Source of the DNA: Branchiostoma floridae
Taxonomy: Eukaryota > Chordata > Leptocardii > Amphioxiformes > Branchiostomatidae
Assembly (NCBI RefSeq): GCF_000003815.2
Contig: NC_049985.1
Coordinates: forward strand, 23,315,406-23,379,405
Reading direction: 5' to 3'
Length of the DNA: 64,000 nt
Under the pieces are notes generated by a model, which saw only the letters and a list, made by a program, of their open reading frames with translations, was not told where the DNA came from and did not search any database. This document shows, in pieces, positions 16,723 through 38,549 of the stretch; within the stretch, counting starts at the first letter, position 1; the number at the start of each line of letters is the position of its first letter. The position numbers and the translations under genes were made by a program.

Positions 16723-17740
16723 ACAGACACACACACACACATACACACACACACATTGTTTGCGAAGGTAATGACAATGTGTTACCTTTTATTTTCGCCT
16801 TCCGTAAAGCACCTTGCCTCGCAGGGACCTGGCTGTACGTGACATTGTTCGGTTCTCTCCTCAGGGTACCGGTTTGTCGGGGAACATTGCTGTTCGGATC
16901 TTCACAGTTCTCATCGACCTCGATTTTTCCATCTGTTGTGATATATATTCAATAAAAATATTTATCTGAAAGTTTATGATTTTTATCGGGGTACAAATTT
17001 GACCAATGCTTTACTAGTTGATCATGTTGATCCGATAAGATCGATGACCATCAAAGACTTGACAAATTTACAGTAGGTGACCATTTGTGACCAAAGGTTT
17101 TGCCCATTTTGTCCAAAGCAAATTGAAAATGAATTTCATTTCGCCATGGAATGTCCTATGTATGATATGTTACGCAGTATGTTTTTTAAAACATTCTTAT
17201 GTTTGAATACTACAGATTTCATATTCTAGATACCAGAAGTAGATTTAGCTATATCTTTAGATCCGACAGATACCCATAATGCTATGATAGGTAAATACAT
17301 AAAAGATTGCTTTGTGATTAGAAAAGGTAGTGACACGTTTAGCCCCACTTGATTGTTTAAAGGTTTTTCCTTGTTATTCTGTATCATTCAATTAGTAGAA
17401 TCATATTATTCTATACTGTTTAATCAGTAGAATTGTAATTTGTAAGATATATTCTGTATTCTTTTTTTTTGCAGTTTTTCTTGGCCATACAAAAGTGACT
17501 GTACTTTCTCGACGGTCGTGTCAATAAAGCTTGTAATGTGAAGGTCACCATCTTGCAGAATTGCTACGGAGTCTCTTGCTGTTGTCGTCATTCAAATTGT
17601 TTTTTTCACCTACCTGTATCCAGATCTTGGTGTGAAGGTGGTAGCACCTTAGAATCCGGTAAGGCGGGGAGGGGCCTTCCTTTCATGCTTGTCATCGGTA
17701 AAGCAGGGAGGGGCCGTCCCCTCATGCTTGTTCTCTTCAT
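1594..17740 (-). CDS. LecR gene model: type II membrane lectin-like receptor (8 exons, 3' incomplete)
   Basis: Eight exons join in one frame (17614-17740, 16786-16932, 15704-15940, 12319-12456, 11628-11861, 7040-7345, 5353-5598, 1594-2037), about 626 codons. Every junction is phase 1, so domains are carried on symmetrical exons that can be skipped or shuffled without a frame change. A cytosolic N-terminal part of about 215 residues precedes a single hydrophobic helix. Outside the cell come a Pro/Ser/Thr stalk, a WSC-like module, a PAN/apple module and an F5/8 type C module, the last being a family known for sugar or lipid binding. The cytosolic part holds SH3-ligand-like, ITIM-like and NPxY motifs, so a signalling or endocytic surface receptor is inferred. 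No ligand can be named. The frame stays open at the last donor, so further exons are expected below position 1594 or outside the window. I do not recognise an exact orthologue. Confidence 0.7.
2475..2503. repeat. (GT)n microsatellite
   Basis: Fourteen uninterrupted GT units inside a dispersed repeat that also occurs near 4150-4500. Confidence 0.95.
4065..4625. mobile_element. Non-autonomous element with ACCTTCGCCAA termini
   Basis: The left end ACCTTCGCCAAG and the right end TTTGGCGAAGGT are inverted copies. Inside are a long TG microsatellite and a degenerate dispersed sequence (catgatacttggtatttgagtagcggttgc) also seen at about 2380-2420. A second left end, with the same ACCTTCGCCAAGAAGGTTA, occurs at about 2280 without a clear right end. 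No coding potential. Target duplication not resolved. Confidence 0.5.
4255..4345. repeat. (TG)n microsatellite with TA and TC interruptions
   Basis: About 90 bases of TG dinucleotides, pure in the first half and interrupted by TATG, TCTG and GAG steps in the second. Confidence 0.95.
4784..4912. repeat. Three tandem 41-bp units ending in a hairpin
   Basis: Units begin ATCGTCCTGTCAACAG at 4784, 4825 and 4866. In the third unit the last bases changed so that CGTCCTGTCAACAG (4868-4881) pairs perfectly with CTGTTGACAGGACG (4896-4909) around a 14-base loop. The first two units have one to three mismatches in that stem. Confidence 0.8.
4929..5095. repeat. Tandem pair plus inverted copy around ATATCGTAAACTGG
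   Basis: Two direct copies start at about 4931 and 4984 (atatcgtaaactgggcaaac). An inverted, partly degenerate copy follows at about 5060-5095 (gacagtttgtccaacttacgatat). The three could fold back on each other. They adjoin the 41-bp repeats. Confidence 0.6.
5353..5598 (-). CDS. LecR exon 7: PAN/apple domain
   Basis: Acceptor gtttcag| to donor ACAG|gttgga, 246 bases, phase 1-1. The 82 residues begin ETCGHGLSAF and contain the apple-domain core GCAEACCANSTCLSFQYN, then QCYLKSRLC and the ending MYDRI. The spacing CxxxCC(x)nCxxFxYN is characteristic of PAN/apple modules, which mediate protein or sugar contacts. It follows the WSC-like exon directly. The frame runs on beyond the donor for about 50 codons without domain features and is taken as intron. 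Confidence 0.75.
5703..5872. repeat. Left arm of a 170-bp inverted repeat pair
   Basis: It starts CCAAGCAGAGGTTCGGCTCC and matches, inverted, 8488-8660 almost throughout. A further matching block, 5937-5985 (catcatttccgtttcaaa), pairs with 8668-8713, but in a different order, so the pair has been rearranged. The two arms flank LecR exon 6. Confidence 0.65.
6017..6899. mobile_element. TA-flanked composite MITE with nested fold-back
   Basis: The ends CGAGGGGGGTTCAATAAG and CTTATTGAACCCCCCTCG are perfect inverted copies, flanked by TA on both sides (6015-6016, 6900-6901), as for Tc1/mariner-type insertions. The inverted arms are near-identical for about 180 bases. Inside, 6353-6550 and 6555-6690 form a second inverted pair whose sequence matches the element at 59627-59862, so one MITE seems nested in another. 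No transposase. Confidence 0.7.
7040..7345 (-). CDS. LecR exon 6: WSC-like cysteine domain
   Basis: The exon (306 bases, acceptor cacacag|, donor ACAG|gtcaga, phase 1-1) codes about 102 residues beginning SESREYISLGCWAD. Key features are LGCWAD, the run DRAIPTLE, KCYQVALSRGF, GGQCFGSADG, a TYNKYG stretch, TTCAADGEGG and NEVYKIT at the end. This four-cysteine module is abundant in lancelet and cnidarian extracellular proteins, often annotated as WSC-like, and is thought to bind carbohydrate. It sits just outside the membrane stalk. The whole module is on one symmetrical exon. Confidence 0.75.
7630..8300. repeat. About 247-bp tandem repeat, rich in octamer motifs
   Basis: Three units begin GTTGACGGATC at 7634, 7879 and 8127. 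Each carries one to four ATGCAAAT/ATTTGCAT octamers, about eight in all, plus the shared stretch cactgcattccatgatag. The third unit is truncated. It lies in the intron between LecR exons 5 and 6 and has no coding potential. Confidence 0.7.
8488..8660. repeat. Right arm of the 170-bp inverted repeat pair
   Basis: Reverse complement of 5703-5872 with scattered mismatches, ending GGAGCCGAACCTCTGCTTGG. The adjoining 8668-9010 stretch is GC-rich with short open frames on both strands that resemble no protein I know. Confidence 0.65.
8716..11627. other. Intron between LecR exons 5 and 6, upstream part
   Basis: Apart from the possible orphan exon at 9367-9462, nothing gene-like is seen. A local duplication (ggctagggc-tttca) occurs at about 9197 and 9330. 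The 9700-10300 and 11040-11260 stretches contain several TGACGTCA-like sites and look like old dispersed repeats. A C-run sits at 11383-11393. Confidence 0.35.
9367..9462 (-). CDS. Possible orphan exon (32 codons, unrecognised)
   Basis: A good acceptor (ctttaacag|) and donor (AAC|gtaaga) enclose 96 bases open in only one frame, coding TMMIVTEDPWDPANM followed by FLSRKTSDGVTLPAN. It is phase 0 at both ends, unlike the phase-1 exons of LecR around it, so it cannot be inserted into that transcript without breaking the frame. It may belong to another transcript or be chance. I recognise no domain. Confidence 0.2.
11628..11861 (-). CDS. LecR exon 5: transmembrane helix and Pro/Ser/Thr stalk
   Basis: Acceptor ctgacag| opens a phase-1 exon coding NNDAEDSC, a short Ser/Thr/His/Arg stretch, then about 24 hydrophobic residues (SFVVLLVIIAIGIG...FLTT). 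The helix is Gly-rich. A Pro/Ser/Thr-rich stalk follows (HPLSPNSS, VTSSRPPVSPFPAIPT), likely glycosylated. With no signal peptide before it, this single helix makes the protein type II. The proposed donor ACCG|gttcta is weak but gives the phase needed by exon 6; the frame stays open beyond it, so the 3' limit is the least certain in this gene. Confidence 0.55.
12319..12456 (-). CDS. LecR exon 4: duplicated NPMY-bearing cytosolic segment
   Basis: Acceptor tttacag| to donor GGAG|gtgcgt, 138 bases, phase 1 at both ends. It encodes EPIENTTQ, then the block DGQPTAEDTDET ... LLENPMYAAGVL ... QDDG shared with exon 3. The NPMY motif and its flanks are kept in both copies while other positions differ, which suggests the motif is under constraint. 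Intron sequence 3' and 5' of the exon also resembles that around exon 3 (the stretch TTTTCGTTCAC at 12539 and 15617), so a genomic segment was duplicated, not just the exon. Confidence 0.65.
14877..14945. repeat. Near-perfect palindrome, 34-bp arms, 1-base centre
   Basis: The inner 26 bases of each arm (14885-14910 and 14912-14937, starting TTCTTGCAATATACC) are perfectly complementary around a single G at 14911. The outer eight bases match with one difference (G against A). The loop is too small for a microRNA precursor; a cruciform or recent template-switch product is more likely. Confidence 0.9.
15028..15063. repeat. (CTAT)n microsatellite with CTAC variants
   Basis: About nine tetranucleotide units, mixing ctat and ctac. 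Confidence 0.9.
15285..15329 (-). pseudogene. Relic of a third exon-4-like copy
   Basis: Read on the minus strand, a polypyrimidine/acag acceptor is followed by EPIKNTTQ and then TGA, closely matching the start of exon 4 (EPIENTTQ). The intron bases before it also match those before exon 4 (around 12457-12490). Downstream similarity fades within about 40 bases. It looks like the broken 5' end of a further duplicated exon, now inside the intron between exons 3 and 4. Limits are approximate. Confidence 0.45.
15704..15940 (-). CDS. LecR exon 3: tyrosine-rich cytosolic segment with NPMY
   Basis: The exon runs from acceptor tttag| to donor GGAG|gtacgt, 237 bases, phase 1 at both ends. Its second half (DGQPTAEDTD ... 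LLENPMYAAGVL ... QDDGG) is a close copy of exon 4, so the two arose by tandem duplication. The first half is unique and holds further tyrosines, including TYDDP (a YxxP pattern seen in Crk SH2 ligands) and SQYAEEED. NPMY fits the NPxY signal bound by PTB domains and endocytic adaptors. The segment has no hydrophobic stretch and is strongly acidic. Confidence 0.65.
16670..16755. repeat. (CA)n microsatellite, TG repeat in the LecR transcript
   Basis: About 85 bases of CA with a few CAGA and CATA steps. On the LecR strand it is a TG repeat beginning about 30 bases past the exon 2 donor, a position where UG repeats are known to bind CELF or TDP-43-type splicing factors in animals. Any role here is inference. 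Confidence 0.95.
16786..16932 (-). CDS. LecR exon 2: cytosolic segment with ITIM-like VTYSQV
   Basis: Acceptor acaacag| and donor AAAG|gtaaca bracket 147 bases, phase 1 at both ends. The 5' part is acidic (DGKIEVDENCEDP), the 3' part basic (LRKAKIK). In the middle, NNVTYSQV matches the ITIM pattern (I/V/L/S)xYxx(I/V/L), a site that recruits SH2 phosphatases once phosphorylated in known receptors. A long TG repeat, as read in the transcript, begins about 30 bases beyond the donor. Exon confidence comes from the matching phase on both sides and the open frame; the ITIM role is inference. Confidence 0.65.
17077..17540 (+). mobile_element. LINE 3' end relic (C-terminal CCHC and tail)
   Basis: On the plus strand the frame from 17077 to a TGA at 17350 codes CPFC...HFAMECPMY, the CX2CX8HX4C motif found near the C-terminus of many non-LTR retrotransposon polymerases. 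One in-frame TAG at 17227 breaks it. The sequence after the stop is AT-rich and ends in TCAATAAAGC just before 17540. Only the last about 90 codons remain, so it is dead, inserted antisense in LecR intron 1. Confidence 0.65.
17614..17740 (-). CDS. LecR exon 1: start codon and duplicated RPLPALP motif
   Basis: The ATG at 17740-17738 follows an in-frame TGA only nine bases upstream, and no earlier ATG is possible in this frame. The exon gives 42 codons plus one base and ends at a good donor (CAG|gtaggt). It contains a 13-residue tandem duplication, TSM-R/K-GRPLPALP, encoded by a 39-bp DNA repeat. Each copy has R-P-L-P-x-L-P, which fits the class I SH3-ligand pattern RxxPxxP. Being first, basic and without a hydrophobic stretch, it should lie in the cytosol of a type II protein. 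A start further upstream by splicing is possible but not needed. Confidence 0.6.
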
Positions 17741-22083: not shown

Positions 22084-23334
22084 ACTGTCATCTAGAGCTG
22101 CTCTCAAACTTGTTGGATGATTCATTTTCTTTACGTGTGACAGGGACATTATCATTTTTATTGGGTAAACATTTATCTCTTGGATCTCTGTGAAGATAAA
22201 TGTGACCGTATTATTAGCAAATAGAGCAAATGTTATGTTTGAAGCAGTACCTGTAATAAAAGACAACATTGTTACATTGGGCAACCCTATCCAACACACC
22301 ACAAGTCTTGTGAGTTCAAAATCATTTGAGTTGTTAGCATATTCTACAAGCCAGTATAATTTGCAGACCTTCACCAACCCTGTTACATTATAGTAAAGTA
22401 AACAGTTACATGTAGTACACAGTAAGTTGATAGATCTTGCAGTGAGCAAATTAGAGTTTGTTCATAATTGTGTTTGAGTCAAAAACAGAGCTTCTCTTTT
22501 CATCCATCAAAGTCACTGAACATTCCTTCTTCATACATTCTACAACTTCAACTAACTCCTTTACAGTCAGATCCTTTAAGCCTTATCTTTTTCTGTCGGC
22601 TCCTCTCTCCACTTACATTACCAATAAACTTCAAGTTTCCATCTGCAGTGGTTCTTTTCCATGTGAAAGTCTACAAGCCTTAGGGCTACATTTAGTACAA
22701 GACTGTACAAGACTGAAATGCCTGCTTCCATATCATAAAATTTTGCAAAGTTTGATACATTGACTGAGAAGTCGGTGACAAGTAAAACAAGTATAAAATG
22801 TAAATAATGAAAATGTAGTGCTGATTATCTTCTAAGAAAATTTCATTTGCATACACAGCATTTAGGCAATGTAACATTCAAGGCCTTGTCTCTCACTGGA
22901 CTGCAGCAAATTGGCAGTGACGCTGCACCTTAATGCAGTATGTATTCTGAGACTATGAGTTAAATGTACATATTAACAAAATTCACAAAGCGTAAAAATT
23001 GATTGATTCTTATCTACTGAAATTCATTTTGCATTGCATAAAATCTCTCTGTGACAGTGATGACCAACATTCCCCAACTTCAGTAAGAAGCTTAAATAAT
23101 TTCTTCACAACTGACCTATGATTGTAAGGCACACACATAAGTGATGAAATTACGGTAAGAATACAACACCTAGTAACCTAATCAATAATGGTGATAATGA
23201 TAACAATGATGATAAAACCGTCTATAATTATATTAAAGAGTCAGTCAAATGATGTACTGATGATAGACTATCAAAGTTGGAGATAAACTCCTTGCAATTG
23301 CAAGGCTTGTAGCATAAGAAAACTTTAAGGTAAA
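22084..23334. other. Probable 3' flank of the MICU gene
   Basis: The region follows the MICU stop codon on the minus strand and probably includes its 3' UTR. No AATAAA on the minus strand was seen close to the stop; the nearest I noticed is around 22156-22161. Open frames at 22033-22449 and 22458-22763 are AT-rich and resemble nothing known. Confidence 0.35.
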
Positions 23335-23475
23335 TTATGAGAAATATCCTCCACTGCTTCTGCGAGACTGCTGATCGTACTGCCAAAACCTCATCAGTGG
23401 GTTTCTCTTCACCTTCCTCTTTATGCAGGAGGCAAAACTTAACCAGTCATCCGCATGTTCGTACTCTTCTGCTGG
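23335..23475 (-). CDS. MICU3: MICU exon 12 (terminal), C-terminal tail
   Basis: Acceptor accatcccag| leads in phase 0 to PAEEYEHADDWLSFASCIKRKVKRN and then a basic, Ser-rich end before TAA at 23335-23337. In the family, the stretch after HRGFR also carries a short FxxCxKK-type tail, matching FASCIKRK. The tail here is about 20 residues longer than I would expect for MICU3, nearer to MICU2. Confidence 0.75.
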   Translation of the reverse strand, partial: PAEEYEHADDWLSFASCIKRKVKRNPLMRFWQYDQQSRRSSGGYFS

Positions 23476-26400
23476 CTGGGATGGTGAGAAGTTACACCAA
23501 GAACACGTAAGAACAACGAAGAATGGAGATAGAATTCCCTGCAATTCGTAGCCGTCATTAAGATGTTTGATTGAAACTTTTTTTTTTTTTGTTCCTGGTT
23601 CTGTATACGTGCAGGAAGAACCAAAATGTCAGAAAGATCTATAGGACAAAGTTTTATAAAAAAAAATCAACAACCTAAACAGAAAACCTGAATATGCAAG
23701 CTCAATGAATCTATAAACTCTAAGTAAGTCTTTGAATCATACTGATAGACTGAATATAGTCAAAGTGAAAAAAGGACAACTTTGAATATCAAACAACAAT
23801 TTCAACTGAGTTACTAAACTCTAAAGAGAAAGAGGTGGCACTACTCTCCAAGCAGGGGTGAAGAAGATTGCGACCTGTTTTTCTGTTCACGCTCCAAACC
23901 AGATCGTGAACAGAAAATAGGACATGAAGATAGAAACGTCAGTCTCCCCTACCAACTTCTGCTTGGAGACTATAACCACTCCACTGTTACAATAAAATGC
24001 AGGTAGCAATGCAAGAAAAAAGCACAAGAAGGCTCTACAAAGTACAGGTAAGCGCAAAGAAGCAAAACAGGTAGTACATTATACATGACTGTACAAGTCA
24101 TGTATATGTTAGTTATGAGCCGTCAACGCAAACATAACAAAAGACAAGGAATGGTCAAGAGAATGGTAAAGATTCTCTTGACCATAATGACGGGTTAGTT
24201 TGATGATTAATGCATGGCAAACAAAACAAAGCATGGGGCAAGCTTTCTGGACACCTGTTACTCAATTTTTACATTCAATGATTGTAGTCTGACTCAGAGT
24301 CTGTAGAAATTTCACTTTGATCAGAATTCACACTAGTTTAGCTCAGTCAAAAGGCAGGAATTGGAGAGTCTGTGATTCTTAACAGAGTGCAATTACATTT
24401 GAAAAACGAGTCAAACAACAGAGTTAAATATAGTTTTCCTACATATATAAACAATGGTTACCTTAATATTTTCCTGCTTATAATACATTCAGTGTGACAG
24501 CAAAGAAAACTGTCAAAATATTAGAATATGTGCACAATATATAAGAAAACTATTAATAATAGTATGATATGTTCAACTGATGAATTAGACTGATGAAAGT
24601 TTGATGTTAAGCAGGGTGTCCAGAAAGCCTGACCCATAACTAAGGCAGAAATGCTTACTGACGTGGATAGGGTTGGACATGGTAGGAGCGAGGTGCAACA
24701 CTTAAGCTGTAATCACATCTTTAAGACAAGTCTTGTAGCCTTCCCAGCCGTGGTAAGATTCACTCTCAGCCTTTTTCTTCTGCACACATGTAAGGACAGG
24801 AAGTACAGAATTATGTTACCATTGATATTATAGCTGCAGGGAGAACTCAACTTGTGAAAGATATGTCTAACAGGGTTATTGTTTGTACAATACATTTTCA
24901 TGAAACACTGTCAAAAATGATTTAATTATAATCTGAATATAAAAAGTTTCCCAGTGTTTCAAAGTACCATGCTCTAATTCAATTACTAATTGAATTAGAG
25001 CATGGTACTTTGAAACACTGGGAAATGAGTTATTCTTCCTGTGAATGTATAAAATATATCATTTCTAGTAAATGTTTCAAACTAATCTGGCCAAAGTGAT
25101 TGCCATGATATCTGAATCTTTTATTATAATAAATCTTTTATTATAATAAGCCAATCGGTGTTGCTTTGAATGGTGAGTATACAATGGATGCATTTTGAAA
25201 GCTTTATAGCTGCAGCATATCAAGAACAACACAAAATGATGTTCTAATGGCCACAGCTTATGAGTTAAAAAGTAACTCAAACGCACATCTATCTGGAAAG
25301 AGCAGAAGACCAGAATGAAAACAGTGACTATTAATCTTGACATAAAAGTTCACTACACCTAAAAATGATCTATCAAGAGATGAAAGTGGGTACCATACAT
25401 GCACTGCTCTGCATGGTTTTTGCTGTTTTTTCTAAAAGATTTTTTCAACACAGTATATGGTGTCATACACCATAGTACATTCTATTAGTCTCATACATAC
25501 AAAATCAATCTGAAAAAAAAAAAAAACTCTATTTGTAAGTAGATGTGCATTTGATGATTACATGCCTTGTCAGACACATCTTCCCAAGAAAGCAAGGTCA
25601 CAAATAAAGCAACTGAACCTTTACATGAATTATTTGTGTTCAATGAACATATTATACAAGGCAGTGCTTATAGGCGAAGGAGGACAATTTAGTGCCAGCA
25701 CTCAGAAACAGAGATGCTTGCCTAAGAGCTCGAGGGAACATGGCATCACTTTTACATACTACGAAAAAGCATTAATATTATTGGAATGAAACAACAACAT
25801 TTTATAGCATGATGGCACACACATACAATAAGCTCACACATGTGTCAATGGATCTAAGCCACAGACATTGGTGTGATTTGCAAGATTCAATGGCAATGTC
25901 AATCAGTGGCTAGCACGATAATATTGAGCCAGCAATTACTAATGGTAATTCATGGTCATGCATGTGTAATATGAAATTCAACTGTCTCCTACAGAAAATG
26001 ATGTGACATATAGTTCCTTGTTTGGGGTTGGTTCTGTCACAACCTACATTCTGTAGACTAAAAATTCTATGACTTGAAGACTTGTACAACAGTCTGCAAC
26101 AAATGTATTTCATCTGTGACGGCAATCAACATTAATGTTGCAATTTTAAACTTAACATCCGGACACAAAATAGTGTGCTTACCAACGGGGGCGAATATCA
26201 ACTGCCAAGCACCTTTGACCCTTTGCTGATGTCACACTTCCAATCTGAATGTGTGACATTGGCTTTGGGTCATTACAACATAAGGATCAGAGGACTGATC
26301 AAAATCATGTTGGTAAGTGCTTTTTTTTCTGTGTACAGATGTAATTTAGTTAAAAAATTGCAACATAAGTCTGCAACGAATGTTACTGACTACCTTATGT

Positions 26401-29400
26401 CAGTTCCCTATCCATCTGTAATTCCCAACAGCAAGTTTTTGCTGAACTCACCCTAAATCCCCGGTGGATGCGGTCCTTCATCACACTGATGAACTCCTTG
26501 TGGCTCAGCTTTCCGTCTCCGTCCTCGTCAAAGATCTGGAACACGGTGTTGATGACGTGGGGCGCCAGGTCGATCCCTGTCGACACCTTCACAGCTCTCT
26601 TAAACTCAGCTGGAAACCAGTAACGTTACATGTTACAGGTCAATCCCTGTCGACACCTTCACAGCTCTCTTAAACTCAGCTGGAAACCAGTAACGTTACA
26701 TGTTACAGGCTACAAGTCGATCCCTGTCGACACCTTCACAGCTCTCTTAAACTCAGCTGGAAACCAGTAACGTTACATGTTACAGGTTATAGGTCGATCC
26801 CTGTCGACACCTTCACAGCTCTCTTAAACTCAGCTGGAAACCAGTAACGTTAGATGTTACAGGTCAATCCCTGTCGACACCTTCACAGCTCTCTTAAACT
26901 CAGCTGGAAACCTGTAACGTTACATGTTACAGGTCAATCCCTGTCGACACCTTCACAGCTCTCTTAAACTCAGCTGGAAACCTGTAACATTACATGTTAC
27001 ATGTTACAGGTCAATCCCTGTCGACACCTTCACAGCTCTCTTAAACTCAGCTGGAAACCAGTAACGTTACATGTTACAGTTACAGGTCAATCCCTGTCGA
27101 CACCTTCAACGCTCTCTTAAACTCAGCTGGAAACCAGTAACGTTACATGTTACAGGTCGATCCCCGTAGACACCTTCACAGCTCTCTTAAACTCAGCTGG
27201 AAACCAGTAACGTTACATGTTACAAGTCAATCCCTGTCGACACCTTCACCGCTCTCTTAAACTCAGCTGGAAACCAGTAACGTTACATGTTACAGTTACA
27301 GGTCAATCCCTGTCGACACCTTCACAGCTCTCTTAAACTCAGCTGGAAACCAGTAACGTTACATGTTACATGTTACAGGTCAATCCCTGTCGACACCTTC
27401 ACAGCTCTCTTAAACTCAGCTGGAAACCAGTAACATTACATGTTACATGTTACAGGTCTGTCCCTGTCGACACCTGCTCTCTTAAACTCAGCTGGAAACC
27501 AGTAACGTTACATGTTACATTTACAGGTCAATCCCTGTCGACACCTTCACTGCTCTCTTAAACTCAGCTGGAAACCAGTAACGTTACATGTTACAGGTCA
27601 ATCCCTGTCGACACCTTCACAGCTCTCTTAAACTCAGCTGGAAACCAGTAATGTTACATGTTACATGTTACAGGTCAATCCCTGTCGACACCTTCACTGC
27701 TCTCTTAAACTCAGCTGGAAACCAGTAATGTTATATGTTACATGTTACAGGTCAATCCCTGTAGACACCTTCACTGCTCTCTTAAACTCAGCTGGAAACT
27801 AGTAACGTTACATGTTACATGTTACAGGTCAATCCCTGTTGACACCTTCAACGCTCTCTTAAACTCAGCTGGAAACCAGTAACGTTACATGTTACAGGTC
27901 AATCCCTGTCGACACCTTTACAGCTCTCTTAAACTCAGCTGGAAACCAGTAATGTTACATGTTACATGTTACAGGTCAATCCCTGTCGACACCTTCACAG
28001 CTCTCTTAAACTCAGCTGGAAACCAGTAACGTAACATCATCAAAAAGCCATCCTACTCAAAATCCAAACAACTATCTTGTCCTATGTAAGATAGGTTATA
28101 TAATAGATTACTGTAATAAGAGATAATAAAAGATATACAATGTAGCTATAGATGAATTGATTGCAAAGATGTAGCTTGTTAATTTTATGTGAATTTGATG
28201 CTGTTTTGTAACGTTTTTTCTGGAGATTGCACTTTTTTGACAGATACCTGCTGGAAAGGCACATGATTGTAATGCATGTCAGGTGAGGGTCACAGCCAGA
28301 ATCAAACTCAAGGCTTCTAGTTTCAGTGGCAGGGCCACAAACCTCTGTACTACTCATGCTATCGAACACTACTGAACAATAATTATATATTCTTAGTATC
28401 GTCAGAATAGTCTGGCAGATAAAGACACTATGAAAACATACCTTGCTCCACGGGCTGGTTGGCAAATGTATACATTTGCATGGCGATGGCAAAGTCATCC
28501 AGATTGTTCAGGAACTGGAAAAAGGGCTTGAACTGGTCAAAGGTGATGCCCTGCAGCATGGAGTGGAAAGAAAGGTCACGTGTCAGTCATTCCAAACTCA
28601 TTTACACTAGCCTGAGTGTATTGACTGGGATTAACTTGCCATTAGTCCCATCCTCTGTAGTGACTGCTGGCTCAATCTTTTGCATGTTAACCACGGAAAA
28701 AGCGAAAGGATTGAGCCAGCAGTCACTACGGAGGATGGTACTAAGGCTAGGCTGTAACTGTGCAGATTTCACACTTAACCAACAAGCGATGCACCAAGCT
28801 TACTATAACCTTCTCCTTACTGCCTAACACCATAACCAATACAAATTTGGTGCAAAACAGCTACGCAGGCTAAATGTTATAAGAAGAAATGGTAACTGCA
28901 CCTACATTTTGTATTTCTACTGCAAAGCAATGAGTATTACCAAACGAAAATAATGTGGCAAAGCATGATTAAAAAAGGAAAAAGAAAACATTTTGCATAT
29001 GTCCACCAGAATCTGCAACCTAAACCCAAGCTTTTGCATGGTCCCGCAATATACCTGCATGATACACCTCACCTCACTCAAGGTTACAAAATTATCACCC
29101 TTTGTTTCTTTTCATGTTTTCCTTCTGCTGTTGTTCCAGCATCTGACTAAAGTATGTTTAATATACATGGTTGTAATGTATGTAATATACATAAATGGAA
29201 AAAACTTCATGGCAAAGTCTTGAATACAACTTACAAGTCATCACAAAAATTTAATCAGAACAATTTTTTACAAAACGTTCAACATGTAGTTACTGTTTAG
29301 TAATCATTTATCATCTTAAAATTTTCAAATTTCAAATTCAATCCCAGGATCACTGACAAGCAAAACCTATGTACCTATGTATACTTATTTCTACCACTCT

Positions 29401-32400
29401 GCAATTCTGTGAAATGAACCAATCCTGAATGTCATTATCACAATTAACAGCTCGACCAATGATAGCATGGCAATGACTCGGAGTTCACCAAATGACAAAG
29501 TGGACTGAGCTATGGGATCAGTCAATATAAGTTGAACTTTGTGCGATTGAAAAGGGACAGTGCATTGATTTATATTTAATTGACAGTCACTGACCTTCCT
29601 TTGCCTATAAAATATATTATATTCATTTGATGGAAAGTAATTGAATTTTTTTAGAGTTTTAAGTGTTATCTGCACAAACCTTCTCTTCTGGGATGCGGTC
29701 CTTGAGTCGCTCGATGATGGCGTCATGTGCAGCGTCGGGAAGATGTGTGTAACGCAGCAGGATCTGGGCAAACTCGATCTCCGAGATGGTCGGCATTCCG
29801 CGGGCAAACTCCAGGAAGTACACGGGGTTAAGGAGAGGGATAGATATTTTTCCACCTATCGAACTCTACAATTTACAAAGGAGGATTCAAAGACCTTTAA
29901 CAGGCAAGGAACCGACTATACAGTTTAGTACCTCCATTTTTCTTGGAGGTAATGACATCAGGTTATTTTCATCATCAAGCACATTATGTAGCACAAGATT
30001 TTGTCATTGGGTATCAAATTATATTGTATAAACCCACCAATACCATGATTTGCACATTCTAATATATATTCAGAAGACTCATAAAGAAACTTTAGAACAC
30101 GTGTGCATGTACCACTCTTAGGATGAATGTTCATCTAATCAACACAAACCCAGAGCAACTATGTTTTAGATGTTAAGATGATTAATCTTTAAATTAGTAC
30201 ATGACTGTATATTCCTCCTGAGTACGGTGTTGTCTAATAAAGGATATCTCCAGCTCTAGAATCTCAGTCTGCAGATTGTCCATGAACCTGTGGGTACAGA
30301 AGGATGAGGAGACAATTTAACAATAATTATAACTTTTCTCGGTAATATTCTCTATGATCATTAGATACAACAAATTATCTTTTTATAATCAATGATGGCA
30401 TCAAATTTAGAGTCTGTAGACCCGGTCTATGTTATGATCCATAAAATTAGTTGCAGTGACCTGATAGATTTTCTATATTGTGACTGGAGTAAAAGGATTT
30501 AGTAACTTATAGCATCACAGAACTTAAAGCACTTCTTACTTGTAAAAGTCTTGGAAATTGAGGTCGTCCTTTCCCTTCACACCAAACAGGTGCACCAGGA
30601 GTGTGGTGTCCTGCACATTTCCGTCCGCCAGCAGCTGGGGGAGGGGGGCAATGCAAACTGTCAGAAACACCTCTCTAACAAGTCAACATGGCACTGTACA
30701 CAGTATTTGGGATGATCTATGTGTAAGTCTTGTTTCTTATATCTGTATATTCACCCCTACAAGCACCAAGCACCAAGCACCAAGTTTTTCTGTGAACTAT
30801 GGATCACAATGAGAAGAGAACTATAAAATGTTACATTCAAGACTTTTTAATCTGTTAGGCTAGTCATAATACTAAACGGTTTCAGTTACTTGAAATCTAT
30901 GATGTCATAACCATACAAGGTTCATCCATTGTTTTCTAAATGACTGTTTTAATGCTGTGTACAGATGTTGACTGATTTTTCAATCTTTGTGTAGGCTTAA
31001 CTTGAATAGTATCTTTAAGGTTGTTTCTAGTGTATGTCCTAACACACAATGGCAAATATTATTCAATTTTGATAGCTCCTTGTAACCCTTAAGTAAATAG
31101 CATGTCTTTGAATTACTTTACTGTTGCCAACTGATCTACCCCAAGATCTCTCTAACTGGATAGGAGATGAGGAGGTCTGAAAATAAGTATGATTTAGCAT
31201 TTGAGGGAATAGCAATTTGGCATTGCACAGTATACAGGTAGCAAATATACAGGAGTGGCATAATACATTCTCTTAAACTGAGAGTGCATAGGACANNNNN
31301 NNNNNNNNNNNNNNNNNNNNNNNNNNNNNNNNNNNNNNNNNNNNNNNNNNNNNNNNNNNNNNNNNNNNNNNNNNNNNNNNNNNNNNNNNNNNNNNACTGC
31401 ATAGTCTAGAGCTGTTGTCATGGCAACAGTGTTCCACAGAAGACGGCTGCCACGGTAACAGTGTAACCATGGGGACAGATCTATCCTACCCCTGGGACCA
31501 AAGCAGGAGATGTCATGACAGTCATGAGAATGAATAACATTAAAACATGCAAGCTATGGAGTCTATGGAACTGCCAGGCTCTTAGCGTTTGCAGAAAAAA
31601 CATGATATTCCAAAACAATTTGGAGTAATGCAATTTACATTTCATCTTTAATTTCCTTAATTATAAAATGATGGATAATTTTCATAGTGAAATTCATTGT
31701 AAAGCACATACAATACTTAAAAATCAGCCACACTTGGATAAAGTTACTTAAAAGTTTATACAAAGTCAAAATCTTCTAATTTGAACTTTTAGAAGTTTTT
31801 TTAATTAATTTTCTGTTTCCCAGCAATTCCAGAGATGTAAGCTGCTCCTCAGAGCCAGTGTCTACACAATTCTACAGGATACAAGACCTAATAGTAATAC
31901 ATTACTGTAATTTATACAAAGACTCAGTGCAGCAGATGGAGGTATGAAACCACAGGAAAGCAATACAAGTACAGGCATGCAGAATCATGGAGGAAAGAAG
32001 GTACAAAATGGAGTTGGTCAGCAACCATGACCGTAGTACAGAAAATGAGGGAGGTTCAAAAACAGAAAGAAAGATCAATTCAAGTGCTATTAACCTTGCC
32101 ATACAGTTTTTGTACCTCTCTAAGGCAATTGCAAACTAAATTAATCTAACTTTAAGTTTTTTTCCCTTTGAAACACCAATTCAGTTATTCAAATTCAGAC
32201 TACACTTTTGTCCATTACCATTAAGTGTTCAATGAAATTTTACCTGCCATAATGTTAATTATGACGATGAAAAATAATAGAAATCATTCATTATAAGATA
32301 TCCAAGATGTATCAAACTTTAAAATATATATTCTATCAACATACATAGTATTACATGTAATTCATGGCAATCCAAACCTTAACTTGTTACAGATACGAAG

Positions 32401-35400
32401 ATTGTGATCCTTTTTTTTTAAATTCAGACAAATTCTGTAAACTTGGAAACTCAGGCAGAAGATATAAAATAAGCTATAATGTCATGATGTAGGGTAGAGT
32501 GCATGGGACTGATGGTATGAGCTGTGTGGTCATATAATTGCCATTTTTTAATATAAATTCTTTTAGATAAACTTTTTGGCCAGAGCTTATTTGATGTTAA
32601 CAGTAACTGAATGTGAACAATAATAATTGTAGTTCGTTGCCTTATATCACCTGGACTTAGTCTAGAAAAAAACATTGATCGCAACTATCCTCTTGGAGAT
32701 TGAAAAATGATTTACATTTTGACTCTGAGTCTTTAATTCAGACAATCTGCACAGAATGCACCAAATTTACCAGTAAGTTGTGCGTTTTTTTTCTTAATTT
32801 TTTCTGTTTATCATGATTATTATTGAACAAGCTGTAAACGTGTTAACTCAGACAAATATTGTGAATTTGCTAATCAGAGAACAGTTGTTTTGCACAGCAT
32901 TTACACAACTGCATGAATGCCTTTTCTAATATCAAATTCGTATATCATATAATTATGATGTATAATTTATCATAGAACTGAATACACCACATGAAAAGGT
33001 AATGGCATGGCATGCAGGGGAAAACTTACTACAATCTCTATTATACGGTAGAGTCTGATGTGTGTATGTGTGAAATACCTGTGCTTCCTTCTGTCTGCCC
33101 TGCATGGAAAATGGCAACATCAGTGGTCGTACGTGTTCACAGTTATACAATGGTCTGCCTCAACGCAGGCATTTCAGTACACAGAGGTGTACAAAAGATA
33201 CCGTACAGTCTTCATGCATTATCTTTAATGTACTACTGAGAGTTTATACACAACTTCAAAAATTACTTTTAAAAACACTAAAGAGGAACATTCAGAAGAA
33301 AACCAAAGAAAAGTCTTCAAGATTGACCATGCAATTATTGAAATATTCTATGTCTCAGAAACAGTATTTTGCTAACAGGCAAATGTAGCAAAACTCTTCA
33401 ACTCTCAACAATCGAGTTACGATGCAAGAACTTTCAAACACAATTAACCATGAAGGAACATTACTTAGCAGAACCATGAAAATGTGCAGTTGTCAAACCA
33501 TGCCAGTATCTTGTAAACTCTTTAGGTATAGGGGGAGGGGAGAGTCCAAGCACAGGCTAACAGAAATCTGTAACAACTTAGGATAGACTTTAAATGTCTT
33601 GTCTGAGTCACTAAAATCTGTTGGTTGGAGGTGCTGAGAAAGGTGGGGAGTAGTTGAACGCATGCCACTCTCTCAACCATCGTCAATCGAACAAAGCTCA
33701 AGTACAAATAAGTAATCGGTGGAGTGCAAGGTCGAGGTCAAGGTGCAGAATATAATAGTAGAAGGGAAAGTCGGCACAAACCTCCAAAACAGCCAAGGAA
33801 TCCTGATAAACAATGGATGCAAACAAGATGCAGAAATTATTCCCACAACACGGGTGACGTAATAATAAGCGCAATGGACGCCTCCGTAAGGCGGCGGTTT
33901 GTGAGTCAGAAGAGCACGACACAGGGACGAGTTTGTGAAAGCGGTGAGAGGCACACCACGCACACGCACGCACGAGACAAACAAACATCACAAAACCGTC
34001 CAACGTTCGTGAAATGTAAGTCTGGTTAGTAGGAGAGTCTTTGGACAGCTTCCTTGAGCCTTGTGTTTTGGTCTGACCAATAAATGCAAAATAAACTAAC
34101 TTTAACATTAATCATGCGCCGGTAGCCATTTTTAGTAAAATTCAGAATCATTTACAAAATGTTAACATTATCAAATAAGCAACTACGACACCTCAACTTT
34201 GTTAGGAAACAAAAAAATATTGCCTGTTGAATGACATGACTACTTTACATGCTTTATAATTTAAATATAAAGTTTATATCATGCAGTACAAGTTGCAACT
34301 TTAAAATAAAGTTGAACGTATTAAGAAGACTCATACATGTAAAATCCATCAGAACTTACTTGGTAGTATTGTATTTAGTTTTGTTATCAATTTCATGCCA
34401 AATATCATTCATTGTCCAATAACTTTTAATATCATTCATCATAATTGTTATTTAACACAGCTGTTTGTTGTTAGTAGTTGCACAGGTTGGTCAGCCCCAA
34501 ACAACAAGGCTTATGGCATGCTGCTAAAGGCACTCTGGGATACATACATATTTCTGTACGGCACTCACGCCCTCCGCCTCCTCTTTGGCCTTCCTCTTGT
34601 CGTTCTTCTTGCGGAAAATCTCCTGGAGCTAAAAAGAAGTAAAAGCCATCTCTACACAATGTCATGCAGTTTATTTCACTGATGAGCTACATGTATATCA
34701 TCTTTCACTGGGTCATTACAGAGAAGACAGACTCTATTTGTACTGGTAAATTTTCCCCAAAAAAAACTTTTTTTTAAACTCCTTAGCTACTAATAAATCA
34801 AATATACAATACACAAAGTAGATAAAGAATGTTACCAAGCAGTGGTTGGGCACAGATCGTGTTTTATTTCAAACCCCACAGTGCAGAAATGGTGGTTGAC
34901 AGACTACAATGTGGATGATCAGCTATATTTTCTATACAGTGCACTGATGCCACCTACCAGACTAGATTAGAATTGCAGCCAGATTTATATATTACATGTA
35001 GCCTGGTATCTAACCTGGTAATATACTAGCCCCAGTTCACTCCTCTATCACTTCCCCTGCCAAAGTCTGGAAACCCAAGGCATTTTTAAAATTTCGTAAA
35101 ATATAGGCAAGAGTAGCCAGTGATTTAAGTACGAGTATCACGGTTTTTGTAATGGCATTACAACTGGGAAGAGGAGCAAATTGAAGCTAGTATCCCACTT
35201 ACTAGGCTGACCACTTACCACCATGAATTCATTCTTGTCCACCCGCTGGTTTCCATCCGTGTCAAACATATTGAAAGCAATGTTGAACCCTGCATGAGGC
35301 TCTGAAAGGTGTAAATGTACTGCATTATTCCACGTCAAATATAATGTTGTCTAATGAAGGTCACGTGCATGACTAAGTATAGCTTTTTCTGATTCAGAAG

Positions 35401-37478
35401 AAGAAAAAAAACTTTTTGACATAGTGTGTGAATTACATATTCATATAGTCAATATTGTAACTCTCTGACATTCATCATCATCTCTGACATTAAAATTTCA
35501 ATTTGACAGATCACAATCATATTGTACAGGTTATTAATATTCTTTTACCATTGAAGTCAATGCAAGGACACATTGTCAGTAGATAAGTTGTTAAAGTCAC
35601 CTACAATGTACAACAAAAGCTGTTCGTTCCATAATGGGCTTGATAAAATTGAACTGTGGAATTTTCTGAGGAAATGAGATATATAGTATAATGAGGACCT
35701 GGTATATAACTACCTCATGCATCACACGGCGTGGGAGCTACTAAGTCTAAGTAAGTAAATGAGATATATTTAAGATCCACGATAAGACATGGATTTGTCA
35801 ACGACTTACTTGTGAGGATACAGAGCAGGAACAGGTACTCTGTGAAAGAGATGATTCCTGAGGAAGGGAAGGAAAATCAAATCTTACCTCTGTCAGAAAA
35901 CACGTCAGCGACATAAAATAACTTGGAGACAGGATTCATTTAAGTATCTGTATCAATGGACTTTGCAGTGACACAGACCAGCTTTACAGCAACACAGCAC
36001 GACAGCACACCTAACCTTAAGCTTTGCACATTAATTGAAAACATTTTGTTCACAATGACATAACAGTTTCTATTCTTGCAAACTTCTTACCTTCCTCATG
36101 CATGGAGCGGAAGAACTTGGTAGAACCCTTGTGTCGTGAGGGGGTCTTCTTCAACATGTGAGACACATCCTGCAGGACCAATGTAAAATGTGCATAAGAA
36201 CTTAAAGAAGGCAGTACTATATAGAGCAAAATGAAGGCATTGGGGAACGGTTCGAAGGGCCTTTGAAAAACTCAGCCCAAGACCTAGCTTAAAATTTCGT
36301 CAAATCAGTCTAACACCCTGGTCAACTTGGCCAGTGTTAAGTTTAGGATTAGGTTGTTGGTCTGATTAAATTGTGAAATCATGGCTCTTCCACTTGGACT
36401 GACTATCCTGATAATGACATTGTGTGATGTGTTTTCTTAGCTGCTGCTGAAATTTCAGATGAGGGCTCACCAACGTGATATATTGGATTATCACCCATGT
36501 TACATAGTAGATATATCAGGTTCAGAACAAATCTGGTGATATGTAGACTGCCATACTGTACAGGAACTACATGACATATGGTATGTGTATCTATACTACT
36601 CTAACTTAATGTTATTTATTATGAATGACATTGTACAAAACTGTAATTTTAAGACCAGTTCACTTACATCATCCATCAGGGGACGGCGACCGATACGTGC
36701 TGCAATTCAGAATAGAGGAAATGGGATGTTAGTCGAGGAAAGTTTTCATCAACTGTGAAAAGCTACAAATGTATATGCTGAGCAATAGGTGTATGACTGC
36801 ACAACATAACAATATAAAATTTCATATATTGTACACAAGCTGTAAGGAATACATGTACATGTCATGTACGTTCAATGGCATCTCTATCATAATAATTACG
36901 ATTAGATTGTTACAACTGGATAATACAGTATTTCGGAGATTACTTCCAGGATTTCGAGTGACATCCGACACTCTCTGCTGTCACTAGAATGAACTGGCAG
37001 AATGAGTATGACTCATTATACTATTGGATGTTACTTGAAGTAATCTTCAAGATTCCTTATATCTAGTTGCAGGGATTGAAATGTCTTTTTAAAGTTTAGT
37101 ATTTGATGTTAAAAATCATCTAATACATGTAATAGTAGGATGTTTAACCTTCATCAGAGTATTTATTTTAAACTTTTTACTTAGTACTTACATGTAGTAG
37201 TAGTAAGAGGATGAAAATTTTTGTCAGATTGATAATTGTAAAAAATTTAACACATTAGTATGTGCAATCAGTATATGAATTACAAAGAGACTACAATAAA
37301 TTATAAGGATTAACTTACGTCTAGGCCTTTCCTCCGTCACTGACTCCAGGAAGTCCCTGGGGGTCATGTACATCTGACCTTTGTACTCTACCGAGGAGAA
37401 CTCGCGGAAGCGGCGCTCACGGTCGGACATCTTGTGCTGCGGAGGGGCCCGCTGCCAGAACTTTCGCTTCTCCTCCTC
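23335..37478 (-). CDS. MICU3: Mitochondrial calcium uptake protein, MICU2/MICU3 family (12 exons, 5' incomplete)
   Basis: Twelve exons (37319-37478, 36668-36699, 36091-36169, 35810-35857, 35219-35301, 34569-34628, 30540-30634, 30248-30287, 29680-29817, 28442-28550, 26452-26609, 23335-23475) join in frame over 1143 bases to a TAA. The product is an EF-hand gatekeeper of the mitochondrial calcium uniporter in the intermembrane space. Motifs in order: RERRFREFSSVEY, MYMTPRDFLESVTEE, ISFTEYLFLLCILTKPHAGF, EF loop 1 DTDGNQRVDKNE, TTLLVHLFG, FMDNLQTEILELE, ISEIEFAQILLRYT, GITFDQFKPFFQFLNNLDD, EFKRAVKVSTG, EF loop 2 DEDGDGKLSHKE and the MKDRIHRGFR end. Both loops keep acidic residues at 1, 3, 9 (or Ser) and Glu at 12. 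From family knowledge it is closest to MICU3 with some MICU2-like stretches. The targeting-sequence exons were not found. Confidence 0.9.
24152..24185. repeat. Hairpin with 14-bp perfect stem
   Basis: ATGGTCAAGAGAAT (24151-24164) pairs with ATTCTCTTGACCAT (24172-24185) around a 7-base loop. It lies in the last MICU intron. Confidence 0.7.
24947..25025. repeat. Perfect palindrome, 39-bp arms, 1-base centre
   Basis: Arms 24947-24985 and 24987-25025 (starting TTTCCCAGTGTTTCAAAG) are perfectly complementary around a single C at 24986. It lies in the last MICU intron. It is unlike neighbouring repeats in sequence. Confidence 0.95.
26452..26609 (-). CDS. MICU3: MICU exon 11: second EF-hand
   Basis: Acceptor ggtttccag| at 26610 and donor AGG|gtgagt bound 158 bases. 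The split Ala codon (G from exon 10, CT here) confirms the join. It codes EFKRAVKVSTGIDLAPHVI, NTVFQIFDEDGDGKLSHKEF and ISVMKDRIHRGFR. The EF loop DEDGDGKLSHKE is canonical. The first about 40 bases and the acceptor are repeated about nineteen more times upstream in the intron. Confidence 0.92.
26569..28033. repeat. About 20-copy tandem repeat of the exon 11 splice junction
   Basis: Units of 68-78 bases, about 73 on average, run from the exon 11 start into the intron. Each contains, on the gene strand, the acceptor CTGGTTTCCAG, the first 40 or so coding bases (GAG TTT AAG AGA GCT ...), then TGTAACATGTAACG. Units differ by small changes, such as an added TGTTACA, caccgc for cacagc, and one deletion near 27468. 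Only the unit at the exon itself runs on into the EF-hand; all others hit an in-frame TAA a few codons later. Confidence 0.95.
28442..28550 (-). CDS. MICU3: MICU exon 10
   Basis: Acceptor ccatgctgcag| to donor GCAAG|gtatgt, 109 bases, phase 0 to 1. It codes GITFDQFKPFFQFLNN, LDDFAIAMQMYTFANQPVEQ, a helical block strongly conserved in MICU2 and MICU3 and lying between the two EF-hand lobes. The last base completes an Ala codon with exon 11. Confidence 0.92.
28607..28750. mobile_element. Fold-back MITE-like hairpin
   Basis: CTAGCCT (28607) and AGGCTAG (28744) are inverted, and inner arms of about 42 bases (28639-28680, 28705-28746; gtgactgctggctcaatc) pair with a few mismatches around a short spacer. 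It lies less than 60 bases upstream of exon 10's acceptor. No coding content. Confidence 0.65.
29680..29817 (-). CDS. MICU3: MICU exon 9, downstream of the AT-AC intron
   Basis: 138 bases, exactly 46 codons, donor GAAGAAG|gtttgt with phase 0. It codes FLEFARGMPTISEIEF, AQILLRYTHLPDAAHD and RLKDRIPEEK. There is no AG at a usable position before TTC CTG GAG; instead the intron ends in AC (29818-29819) preceded by a U12-type branch site. The block matches the family (EFLSYSNGM...ISEEDFAHILLRYT) exactly at this joint. Confidence 0.9.
29818..30247 (-). other. U12-type AT-AC intron
   Basis: On the gene strand the intron begins ATATCCTTT, the U12-type AT-AC donor consensus, and ends in GTGTAC. Ten bases before the end lies TCCTTAAC, matching the U12 branch-site consensus. 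No GT-AG alternative keeps both the frame and the conserved LELE-FLEF joint. Length 430 bases. Whether relatives share this intron class I cannot check here. Confidence 0.88.
30248..30287 (-). CDS. MICU3: MICU exon 8 (40 bases)
   Basis: A short exon from acceptor cccacag| to the AT-AC donor. One base completes the Lys codon from exon 7, then FMDNLQTEILELE, a sequence strongly conserved in MICU2 and MICU3. Confidence 0.9.
30540..30634 (-). CDS. MICU3: MICU exon 7
   Basis: Acceptor ctcccccag| to donor ACAA|gtaaga, 95 bases, phase 0 to 2. It codes LLADGNVQDTTLLVHLFG and KDDLNFQDFY, matching the TTLLVHFFG...LNFEDFYRF block of the family. Confidence 0.92.
31296..31395. other. Assembly gap, 100 N
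   Basis: Exactly 100 unknown bases, the usual arbitrary scaffold gap size, so the true length is unknown. It falls in the MICU intron between exons 6 and 7. Confidence 0.99.
31396..31446 (-). CDS. Possible MICU exon cut by the gap
   Basis: After an acceptor-like ccgtggcag| the gene strand reads RLLWNTVAMTTALDYA before the N run. Vertebrate MICU3 has a segment with a YWDTL-like motif and an Ala-rich stretch between the EF-hand 1 region and TTLLVHFFG, so an exon is expected about here. Exons 6 and 7 already join in phase, however, and the pyrimidine tract is weak. Confidence 0.25.
31447..34568. other. MICU intron between exons 6 and 7
   Basis: No supported exon apart from the candidate beside the gap. 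A GC-richer patch at 33880-34000 gives overlapping open frames on both strands without domain features. Otherwise AT-rich. Confidence 0.35.
34569..34628 (-). CDS. MICU3: MICU exon 6
   Basis: Acceptor tttttag| to donor GGGC|gtgagt, 60 bases and 20 codons, phase 0-0: LQEIFRKKNDKRKAKEEAEG. It continues EF-hand 1's outgoing helix (EFMV-LQEIFRKKN) and matches the family's LQEIFRKKNEKR. Confidence 0.92.
35219..35301 (-). CDS. MICU3: MICU exon 5: first EF-hand
   Basis: Acceptor acctttcag| to donor ATGGTG|gtaagt, 83 bases. With the A from exon 4 it reads KPHAGFNIAFNMFDTDGNQRVDKNEFMV. The loop DTDGNQRVDKNE has Asp at 1, 3, 9, Asn at 5 and Glu at 12, so it should bind calcium. Confidence 0.95.
35810..35857 (-). 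CDS. MICU3: MICU exon 4
   Basis: Acceptor ccttcctcag| to donor ACAA|gtaagt, 48 bases, coding IISFTEYLFLLCILT with split codons at both ends (Gly before, Lys after). Matches the family's VISYTEYLFLLCILTKP. Confidence 0.93.
36091..36169 (-). CDS. MICU3: MICU exon 3
   Basis: Acceptor gtcctgcag| to donor GAAG|gtaaga, 79 bases: DVSHMLKKTPSRHKGSTKFF then RSMHEE and a split Gly. The motif MLxxTPxxxKGSxKxFR is conserved in the family. Confidence 0.9.
36668..36699 (-). CDS. MICU3: MICU exon 2 of those found (32 bases)
   Basis: A micro-exon between acceptor gaattgcag| and donor GATGAT|gtaagt: RIGRRPLMDD. It is the only segment between its neighbours that keeps the frame (phase 1 in, phase 0 out). Poorly conserved sequence makes it less certain than the others. 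Confidence 0.75.
37319..37478 (-). CDS. MICU3: First MICU exon found
   Basis: Acceptor cccattttag| to donor AGAC|gtaagt, 160 bases, phase 0 to 1. It codes EEEKRKFWQRAPPQHKMSD, RERRFREFSSVEYKGQ and MYMTPRDFLESVTEERPR. RERRFRxFxSxExxGQxxMTPxDF is a MICU3 signature. The frame is open across the acceptor in the family sense only; the upstream exons with targeting peptide and membrane helix are missing or beyond 38 kb. Confidence 0.9.
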
Positions 37479-37925
37479 CTAAAATGGGATAAGAATTTTG
37501 GTAAGCATGTGTAAATAAGTGGACTGCAGTGATATCAAAACTCTCTAGGTGGCGCTGTTGATATGGCAAAGATGCAGGAACAAGTTAGCCACTGCCAGAA
37601 CTTTGGCTTCTCCTCCTCCTAAAATGGGATAAGAAGTTTGGTAAACATGTGTACATAAGTGGACTGCAGTGATATCAAAACTCTCTAGGTGGCACTGTTG
37701 ATCCATGGCAAAGATGTAGGAACAAGTTAGCCGCTGCAAGGACTTTGGCTTCTCCTCCTCCTAAAAAAGGATAAGAATTTTGGTAAGCATGTGTACATAT
37801 TAACTGGACTGCAGTGATATCAAAACTCTCTAGGTGGCACTGTTGATATGGCAACGATGCAGGAACAAGTTAGCCACTGCCAGGACTTTGGCTTCTCCTC
37901 CTCCTAAAATGGGATAAGAATTTTG
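37450..37925. repeat. About 143-bp tandem repeat carrying an exon's 3' splice junction
   Basis: The first unit starts inside the exon at 37319-37478. Three more starts lie at about 37589, 37732 and 37875 (the last truncated). Each holds, on the gene strand, a TTTTAG acceptor followed by GAGGAGGAGAAG and the next about 18 coding bases. A separated piece of the same unit (gatatggcaaagatgcagg) occurs at 38100-38157. Confidence 0.9.
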
Positions 37926-38549
37926 GTTTATATAACTAAATCATGTGAACTGTTTTTCAGTGTACTGTGTACAGTATATTATCTTATATAATCATTATTT
38001 AGTGCACTGCTTTTGACAGCACTTCTTACATAGTCAGTACATGTAACTCATGCTTATCAGATTCCAACAAATCCTTGTTGAAACACTATACATGTAAACT
38101 GCAGTGATGTCAGAACTCTCTAGGCGGCGCTGTTGATATGGCAAAGATGCAGGAACAATTAAGTCAACCGTTTTACCACAGATCGTTCTGTAAATGATCA
38201 GTCCTTCTGTACCTCTTAAACACTTTAATTTATCTGTCTTTCTATGATATGATGCTTGCATTTGTAAAGCCCAGGAAAACAGAAAAAAAGTCATTATGGG
38301 GCTAAGATATTGACTTTGGATGGGCACATATTACAATCCCAAACCAATATACTATTATTATAGAAACAATAAGTTACCTCCCAAACCAAAATAGAAACAA
38401 TAAGTTTCGGAAAAAATATCTTAATCCAGTCTTTTCTTGAGAGTATATACTGTATCTCTATACACACATGTACGGTTACCGTGATTTTTGGCCTTGATAT
38501 GATGGTTCGAATGCTACAACAGATGGTACCTACTGGCTGTAGTGGCTTA

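Follow-up and report, generated by a model that had tools for sequence, protein, structure and literature searches.

A probable mirage minisatellite with nineteen decoy acceptors precedes an exon of a lancelet MICU2/3-type gene

The window, a 64,000-nucleotide stretch of the Branchiostoma floridae genome, carries on its minus strand a gene assigned by homology to the MICU2/3 type. Here, the three minus-strand frames of positions 23000-37997, with stops written as X, were used as queries against PDB, and the best match in all three was 6agi (MICU3), with E values of 1.9e-19, 8.1e-14 and 2.9e-21; MICU2 chains ranked next. Given that mitochondrial calcium uptake matches were obtained in three frames, and that joining the six 3′ exons yielded a single open reading frame down to the stop, the gene is of MICU2/3 type. 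The partial gene model comprises 12 exons, with some coordinates up to 6 nt off and the 5′ end not included; judged by frame, a small extra exon probably lies between 37319 and 36169. The features on which the analysis centers are as follows (slashes mark splice junctions).

28442..28550, minus strand: upstream exon ("exon 9" of the partial model), 109 nt, reading ..MQMYTFANQPVEQ and ending ..QPVEQ + G; donor AAG/GTATGT
26610..28037, minus strand: candidate mirage array of 19 decoy units (TRF and exact-string search, alignment)
28015, 27938, 27868, 27791, 27714, 27637, 27567, 27491, 27419, 27342, minus strand: first exon-like bases of decoy units 1-10
27266, 27196, 27126, 27050, 26973, 26903, 26833, 26756, 26679, minus strand: first exon-like bases of decoy units 11-19
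26452..26609, minus strand: real exon ("exon 10" of the partial model), 158 nt, AEFKRAVKVSTGIDLAPHV...MKDRIHRGFR; donor AGG/GTGAGT

Exon 10 is flanked by introns of 1832 nt (exon 9 side) and 1672 nt, and the array occupies 1428 nt, or ∼78%, of the former. TRF reported a 77-bp unit repeated 19.0 times at 26625-28037 (89% matches, score 2245). Read on the minus strand, the repeat consists of 20 head-to-tail copies of the 3′ splice site together with the first 44 nt of the 158-nt exon, that is, 19 decoys and the real junction. In each decoy, 44 exon-like nt are followed by a linker of type TGTAACATGTAACGTTACTGGTTTCCAG; the nineteenth linker runs up to the real exon, and the exon proper continues only from unit 20, whose first exon base is 26609 (28015 in unit 1). 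An earlier note had placed about twenty tandem copies of an acceptor and exon start in a MICU intron and had held that only the last runs into the real exon; both points were confirmed, with 20 copies recovered by string search. The repeat unit that it described also stood, but its sizes, given as 68-78 bp with about 40 coding bases, are corrected to 70-77 bp and 44 nt, and the strand is minus.

All 20 acceptors continue into CTGAGTTTAAGAG, the first 13 exon bases, which served as the exact search string. Units were spaced at 70, 72, 76 or 77 bp, and given this regularity the string overlooked no unit; the differences in length are due mainly to an extra heptamer in the linker. The 14 nt preceding the junction were TTACTGGTTTCCAG in 17 of the 20 units, TTACAGGTTTCCAG in two and TTACTAGTTTCCAG in one. 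The core TTTCCAG/CTGAGTTTAAGAGAGC, and with it the junction CAG, is invariant in all 20 units, the real junction included. The array is far beyond what could be expected by chance. Mean pairwise difference among units was 0.042, with four lengths represented and a 5-nt deletion private to unit 8. Divergence was 0.039 between neighbors (lag 1) and 0.038-0.044 at lags 2-7; given that adjacent units are no more alike than distant ones, no clear block history is apparent. With unit 8 excluded, resemblance to the exon was slightly higher in nearby units (rho -0.45, p 0.059), and the same trend without site 37 gave rho -0.22 (p 0.37).

The outcome of splicing to a decoy was assessed by translating each decoy in the frame carried over from exon 9. 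For 18 of the 19 decoys this yields AEFKRA(V/L)KVSTGIDL, followed by a stop at nt 47; in unit 8, the deletion shifts the frame and the stop falls at nt 56, 9 nt later. By eye, the stop codon is TAG in unit 18 and TAA in all other decoys, and the earlier note's in-frame TAA in every non-terminal unit therefore holds as a stop in all 19 decoys, at 47-56 nt, but not as TAA in unit 18. The sequence DEDGDGKLSHKE in exon 10, which from its pattern we take to be the loop of EF-hand 2, is located 3′ of the decoy stop point, and the expectation that use of an upstream acceptor would truncate the protein before EF-hand 2 was borne out by frame-wise translation of all 19 decoys. Transcripts spliced in this way would presumably undergo decay.

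A second, smaller array was observed in the same gene.

37478..37927, minus strand: second candidate mirage, three decoys of TTTTAG/GAGGAGGAGAAG (TRF array 37452-37927)
37903, 37760, 37618, minus strand: first exon-like bases of the three decoys, spaced at 140-143 bp
37319..37478, minus strand: real exon behind the second array, EEEKRKFWQRAPPQHKMSDRERRFREFSSVEYKGQMYMTPRDFLESVTEERPR; donor GAC/GTAAGT

Here, 54-63 of 67 nt around the junction agree between units, although part of unit 1 may fall outside the repeat. Given this level of agreement, the second array has diverged further than the first, and it probably arose earlier. No other copied boundary was detected when the 24 boundaries of the 12 model exons were searched by BLAST at E ≤0.05, only these two acceptors being returned; diverged copies could be missed at that cut-off.

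Twenty near-identical acceptors in one intron constitute a natural test of 3′ splice-site choice, given that a scanning process that starts at a branch point 5′ of the array should select the first decoy, and pairing across the exon the last. Acceptor strength was scored with a matrix built from 10 other acceptors of the MICU gene, of which one junction (exon 2) is not certain; the matrix is crude, since these ten scored from -2.0 to 14.3 when each was left out in turn. The 20 units scored 8.6-9.8 and the real acceptor 9.0, with six decoys higher, 12 tied and one lower, which agrees with the earlier description of some twenty near-identical competing sites. Given that decoys score like the real acceptor, local sequence cannot account for choice of the real site. 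The stretch upstream of the real acceptor is free of AG for 35 nt, and decoys 4, 15 and 16 have an additional AG 5-6 nt upstream of the junction AG. Whether RNA structure might hide the decoys was considered: predicted folding gave z values of -0.95 for one unit, -1.50 for three and -3.34 for six (100 shuffles each), and the whole array with the exon folded at -544 compared with -491 for shuffled sequence (sd 10.6, 10 shuffles), an excess that repeats alone may produce. The difference between decoys and the real site lies downstream, where only the latter leads into the remainder of the exon and a donor of good strength; AGG/GTGAGT scores 8.3, within the 5.6-9.5 range of the gene's own donors.

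Each unit contains TGTAAC or GTTAC, which we take to be a candidate branch-like motif, and the last linker has both. Under the rule of AG scanning from the branch point, described for human introns in the accessible part of PMC1431707, branching 5′ of the array would yield decoy 1, and the productive branch point must therefore be located within the last linker or close to it. Choice of the real site through cross-exon pairing with the exon donor appears the likeliest arrangement. Human data in the portion of PMC9225289 available indicate that long flanking introns favor the closest pair of sites across the exon, and the two introns that flank exon 10 (1832 and 1672 nt) are both long. The same portion reports that competing human acceptors overall favor the upstream site and that long introns significantly reduce this preference; for acceptors, what it describes is a weaker upstream preference and not a clear downstream one. 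Splicing to the last site alone is for that reason not assured, and exon definition with some leakage would be the expected outcome.

The same anatomy has been published for lancelet genes under the name of mirages, defined in the accessible part of PMC3087553 as minisatellite-like repeats over an intron/exon boundary (Adh3 and the globins BflGb6 and BflGb9) and extended in that of PMC3902484 to PGBD5 and troponin C. On these grounds, the MICU array is filed, from its sequence, as a large new member of this class. As in the known cases, a tandem repeat crosses the boundary, the authentic exon lies at its edge and the splice dinucleotides are retained, in many units there and in all 20 here. 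Further traits of the class are boundary units that escape homogenization and array lengths that vary between alleles or tissues. The array resembles that of BflGb6 in being on the acceptor side, but it holds 19 decoys, whereas the BflGb6 haplotypes in the extract of PMC3087553 have 6 and 3 units. Two arrays are present in the MICU gene, as in PGBD5 (PMC3902484, in the part available). Set against the known mirages, the MICU decoys are distinctive in that their variants are mostly synonymous. Among the matches listed in a search of the open-access literature, no report of a MICU mirage was found.

The resemblance to other arrangements of splice signals is more limited. NAGNAG tandem acceptors likewise compete, but the MICU units are spaced at 70-77 bp and each has its own linker. 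At a recursive splice site, the acceptor AG is followed directly by a donor GT; several acceptors may be found in one intron in such systems as well, but the MICU units lack the AG/GT juxtaposition. Intron gain by tandem duplication, of which potato RdRp is reportedly a case, also involves duplication that copies splice signals. Such gain, named in the accessible part of PMC3087553 as the Rogers model, differs from the MICU arrangement in that no new intron is evident here and the copies lie inside an existing one.

Taken together, these features are best explained, with good confidence, by a mirage minisatellite derived from a duplicated intron-3′-end/exon junction, which carries 19 decoys, is most likely spliced by exon definition and would exchange with, or be copied from, the exon. 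The array would have originated by tandem duplication at the junction and subsequent expansion. Every unit supplies a TGTAAC or GTTAC motif, a short run of pyrimidines and CAG, and the transcript consequently offers about 20 near-equal acceptors. U1 bound to the exon's GTGAGT donor would then pair with the nearest upstream acceptor, 158 nt away, with branching in or near the last linker. Use of a decoy leads to a stop before EF-hand 2 and probably on to decay, for which reason some leakage may be harmless or only mildly costly. The array would be held nearly uniform by exchanging with the exon or being copied from it, as is suggested by the mostly synonymous decoy variation.

A compatible but unlikely addition, in line with the earlier note's suggestion that the array modulates how much full-length protein is made, is that the array acts as an attenuator, in which decoys capture part of the splicing, the resulting premature-stop transcripts are degraded and the level of full-length MICU depends on the number of copies. 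That TTTCCAG/CTGAGTTTAAGAGAGC is unchanged in all 19 decoys, all of them truncating, would be expected of such a device, as would decoy scores comparable to that of the real acceptor. Turnover can, however, also produce uniformity, and published mirages are said not to produce aberrant mRNA: in the available part of PMC3087553, splicing appeared undisturbed from Adh3 data and from RT-PCR of globins, and the mirages in that of PMC3902484 are likewise described as not disturbing it.

It is improbable, to a somewhat greater degree, that the array is an assembly expansion of a true array much shorter. A run of 100 N at 31296-31395, an assembly gap inside the MICU gene region, marks the assembly as a draft. 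In addition, misassembly of a lancelet mirage in a draft has been reported (PMC3087553, in the extract available), and the accessible part of PMC3902484 gives the 60-bp repeats of PGBD5 as two in one version and seven in another. Simple re-use of a single unit would not, however, be expected to generate units that differ as these do, in sequence (0.042 pairwise), in length and in the unit 8 deletion, although the exact copy number may be off.

An unexpected pattern emerged when the 44 exon-like nt of the decoys were compared with the real exon. With unit 8 excluded, 10 variant types were found, nine of them synonymous; the expected synonymous fraction was 0.26-0.38 under five mutation settings (P ≤0.00005, 20,000 draws each). 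Adding unit 8 as two non-synonymous types gave nine of 12 (P 0.0005-0.001, three settings). This pattern was noticed post hoc and rests on 10-12 variant types. Differing cells, again without unit 8, fell 27 times at third, four times at first and never at second codon positions, and 15 of the 31 represent one shared change. Third positions were variable at six of 15 sites, more than positions 1 and 2 (p 0.013, or 0.044 with unit 8). Positions 1 and 2 of the exon-like part were not significantly depleted relative to the linker (two of 29 versus five of 28 variable, p 0.25), and hence the contrast is with third positions. In the second array, none of four types was synonymous over 30 nt, which differs from the first array at p 0.005, or 0.019 counting unit 8.

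Turnover was simulated with constraint on the real exon only; runs ending with 6-16 variant types were selected, from 40 runs per setting in the main comparison and 32 per setting in a further series on re-copying. When decoys copied decoys, none of 22 selected runs was at least 75% synonymous, and unequal crossover that included the exon gave none in 26 and none in 31 (0/57). The first settings of the crossover model likewise gave none of 11 at 75%, with a pooled synonymous fraction of 0.28-0.29, and most runs overshot the number of variant types by a wide margin. Re-copying from the exon reached at least 75% in two of 16 and two of 33 selected runs at two 40-run settings (at least 90% in one and none), a third setting leaving no selected run; in the 32-run series, the slower rates gave none of 15 and two of 26. 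At the fastest rates, with exons of random chromosomes as the source and decoys persisting for ∼4 generations (population size 150), at least 75% was reached in 20/25 and 17/26 selected runs (37/51 together) and at least 90% in eight and four (12/51). Given that decoy-only copying and crossover together gave 0/79 selected runs at 75%, only the fastest re-copying fits easily. In the model, the fitting runs required a per-site diversity of 0.15-0.30; this exceeds the synonymous rate of 0.070-0.075 for lancelet genes in the accessible part of PMC4284660, and the fit is therefore strained.

Apart from strained fast re-copying, the pattern might reflect selection acting on the decoys or simply chance. 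Coding constraint, in which a decoy-derived truncated MICU ending in AEFKRAVKVSTGIDL is useful, is very unlikely. The synonymous excess, with or without unit 8, and the failure of decoy-only copying and unequal crossover to reproduce it are both in its favor, but selection on any one of so many redundant copies would be weak, unit 8 is broken, very fast re-copying also yields the pattern, and the evidence comes down to few variant types, with no synonymous type in the second array. That the decoys are in some way kept coding-like, whether as a conserved truncated MICU that tunes calcium uptake or through one-way rewriting by the exon that records past exon alleles, is a more speculative reading that we regard as possible though doubtful. 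Should the synonymous excess hold in other mirages, it would establish either that exons supply their intronic copies by directional copying or that the copies are used.

Step-wise or recursive splicing via the units is extremely improbable: most exon-like pieces are followed by TGTAAC, and other decoy GTs reach 5.2, close to the 5.6 of the weakest donor in the gene, but GTs within TGTAAC score ≤2.2, AG is followed by CTGAG and not GT in all 20 units, which are for that reason not AG/GT recursive sites, and the 43-nt piece is not divisible by three. The earlier suggestion that TGTAAC might act as a weak donor for step-wise resplicing is accordingly poorly supported, its low scores making it unlikely beside own donors of 5.6-9.5. 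CAT/GTAACA scores 1.8 at 9 sites, and CCT/GTAACA lies outside the best 12 listed and hence at ≤0.0; the other decoy GTs comprise AAG/GTGTCT (5.2 at 2 sites) and AAC/GTTACT (4.4 at 13 sites).

Several further observations were made in the MICU gene. A 430-nt intron at 29818-30247 (minus strand) has AT-AC ends, GAG/ATATCCTTTATT ... TCCTTAACCCCGTGTAC/TTCCTG, with the frame running across it; these ends fit what we take to be the U12-type consensus. Candidate alternative last exons at 24702-24779 (KKKAESESYHGWEGYKTCLKDVITA) and 23335-23475 (PAEEYEHADDWLSFASCIKRKVKRNPLMRFWQYDQQSRRSSGGYFS), on the minus strand and both in frame after exon 10, were spotted by eye. Exon 9 contains an 18-nt perfect palindrome at 28462-28479, seen as an inverted self-match of the donor stretch.

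Among 186 open frames of at least 70 aa, 20 were submitted to Pfam analysis and three of these gave a family match. Elsewhere in the window, F5/8 type C, PAN and WSC domains, the WSC match being just under the cut-off, were located at 1550-2071, 5195-5680 and 6993-7409 (minus strand), and may all belong to a single gene for an extracellular protein. At 17657-17731 (minus strand), a 39-bp repeat present in 1.9 copies is coding-looking (..TSMRGRPLPALPMTSMKGRPLPALP..) and ends near a possible donor, but is not obviously a boundary repeat. A 59-bp repeat in three copies, with 97% matches, is present at 45902-46076.
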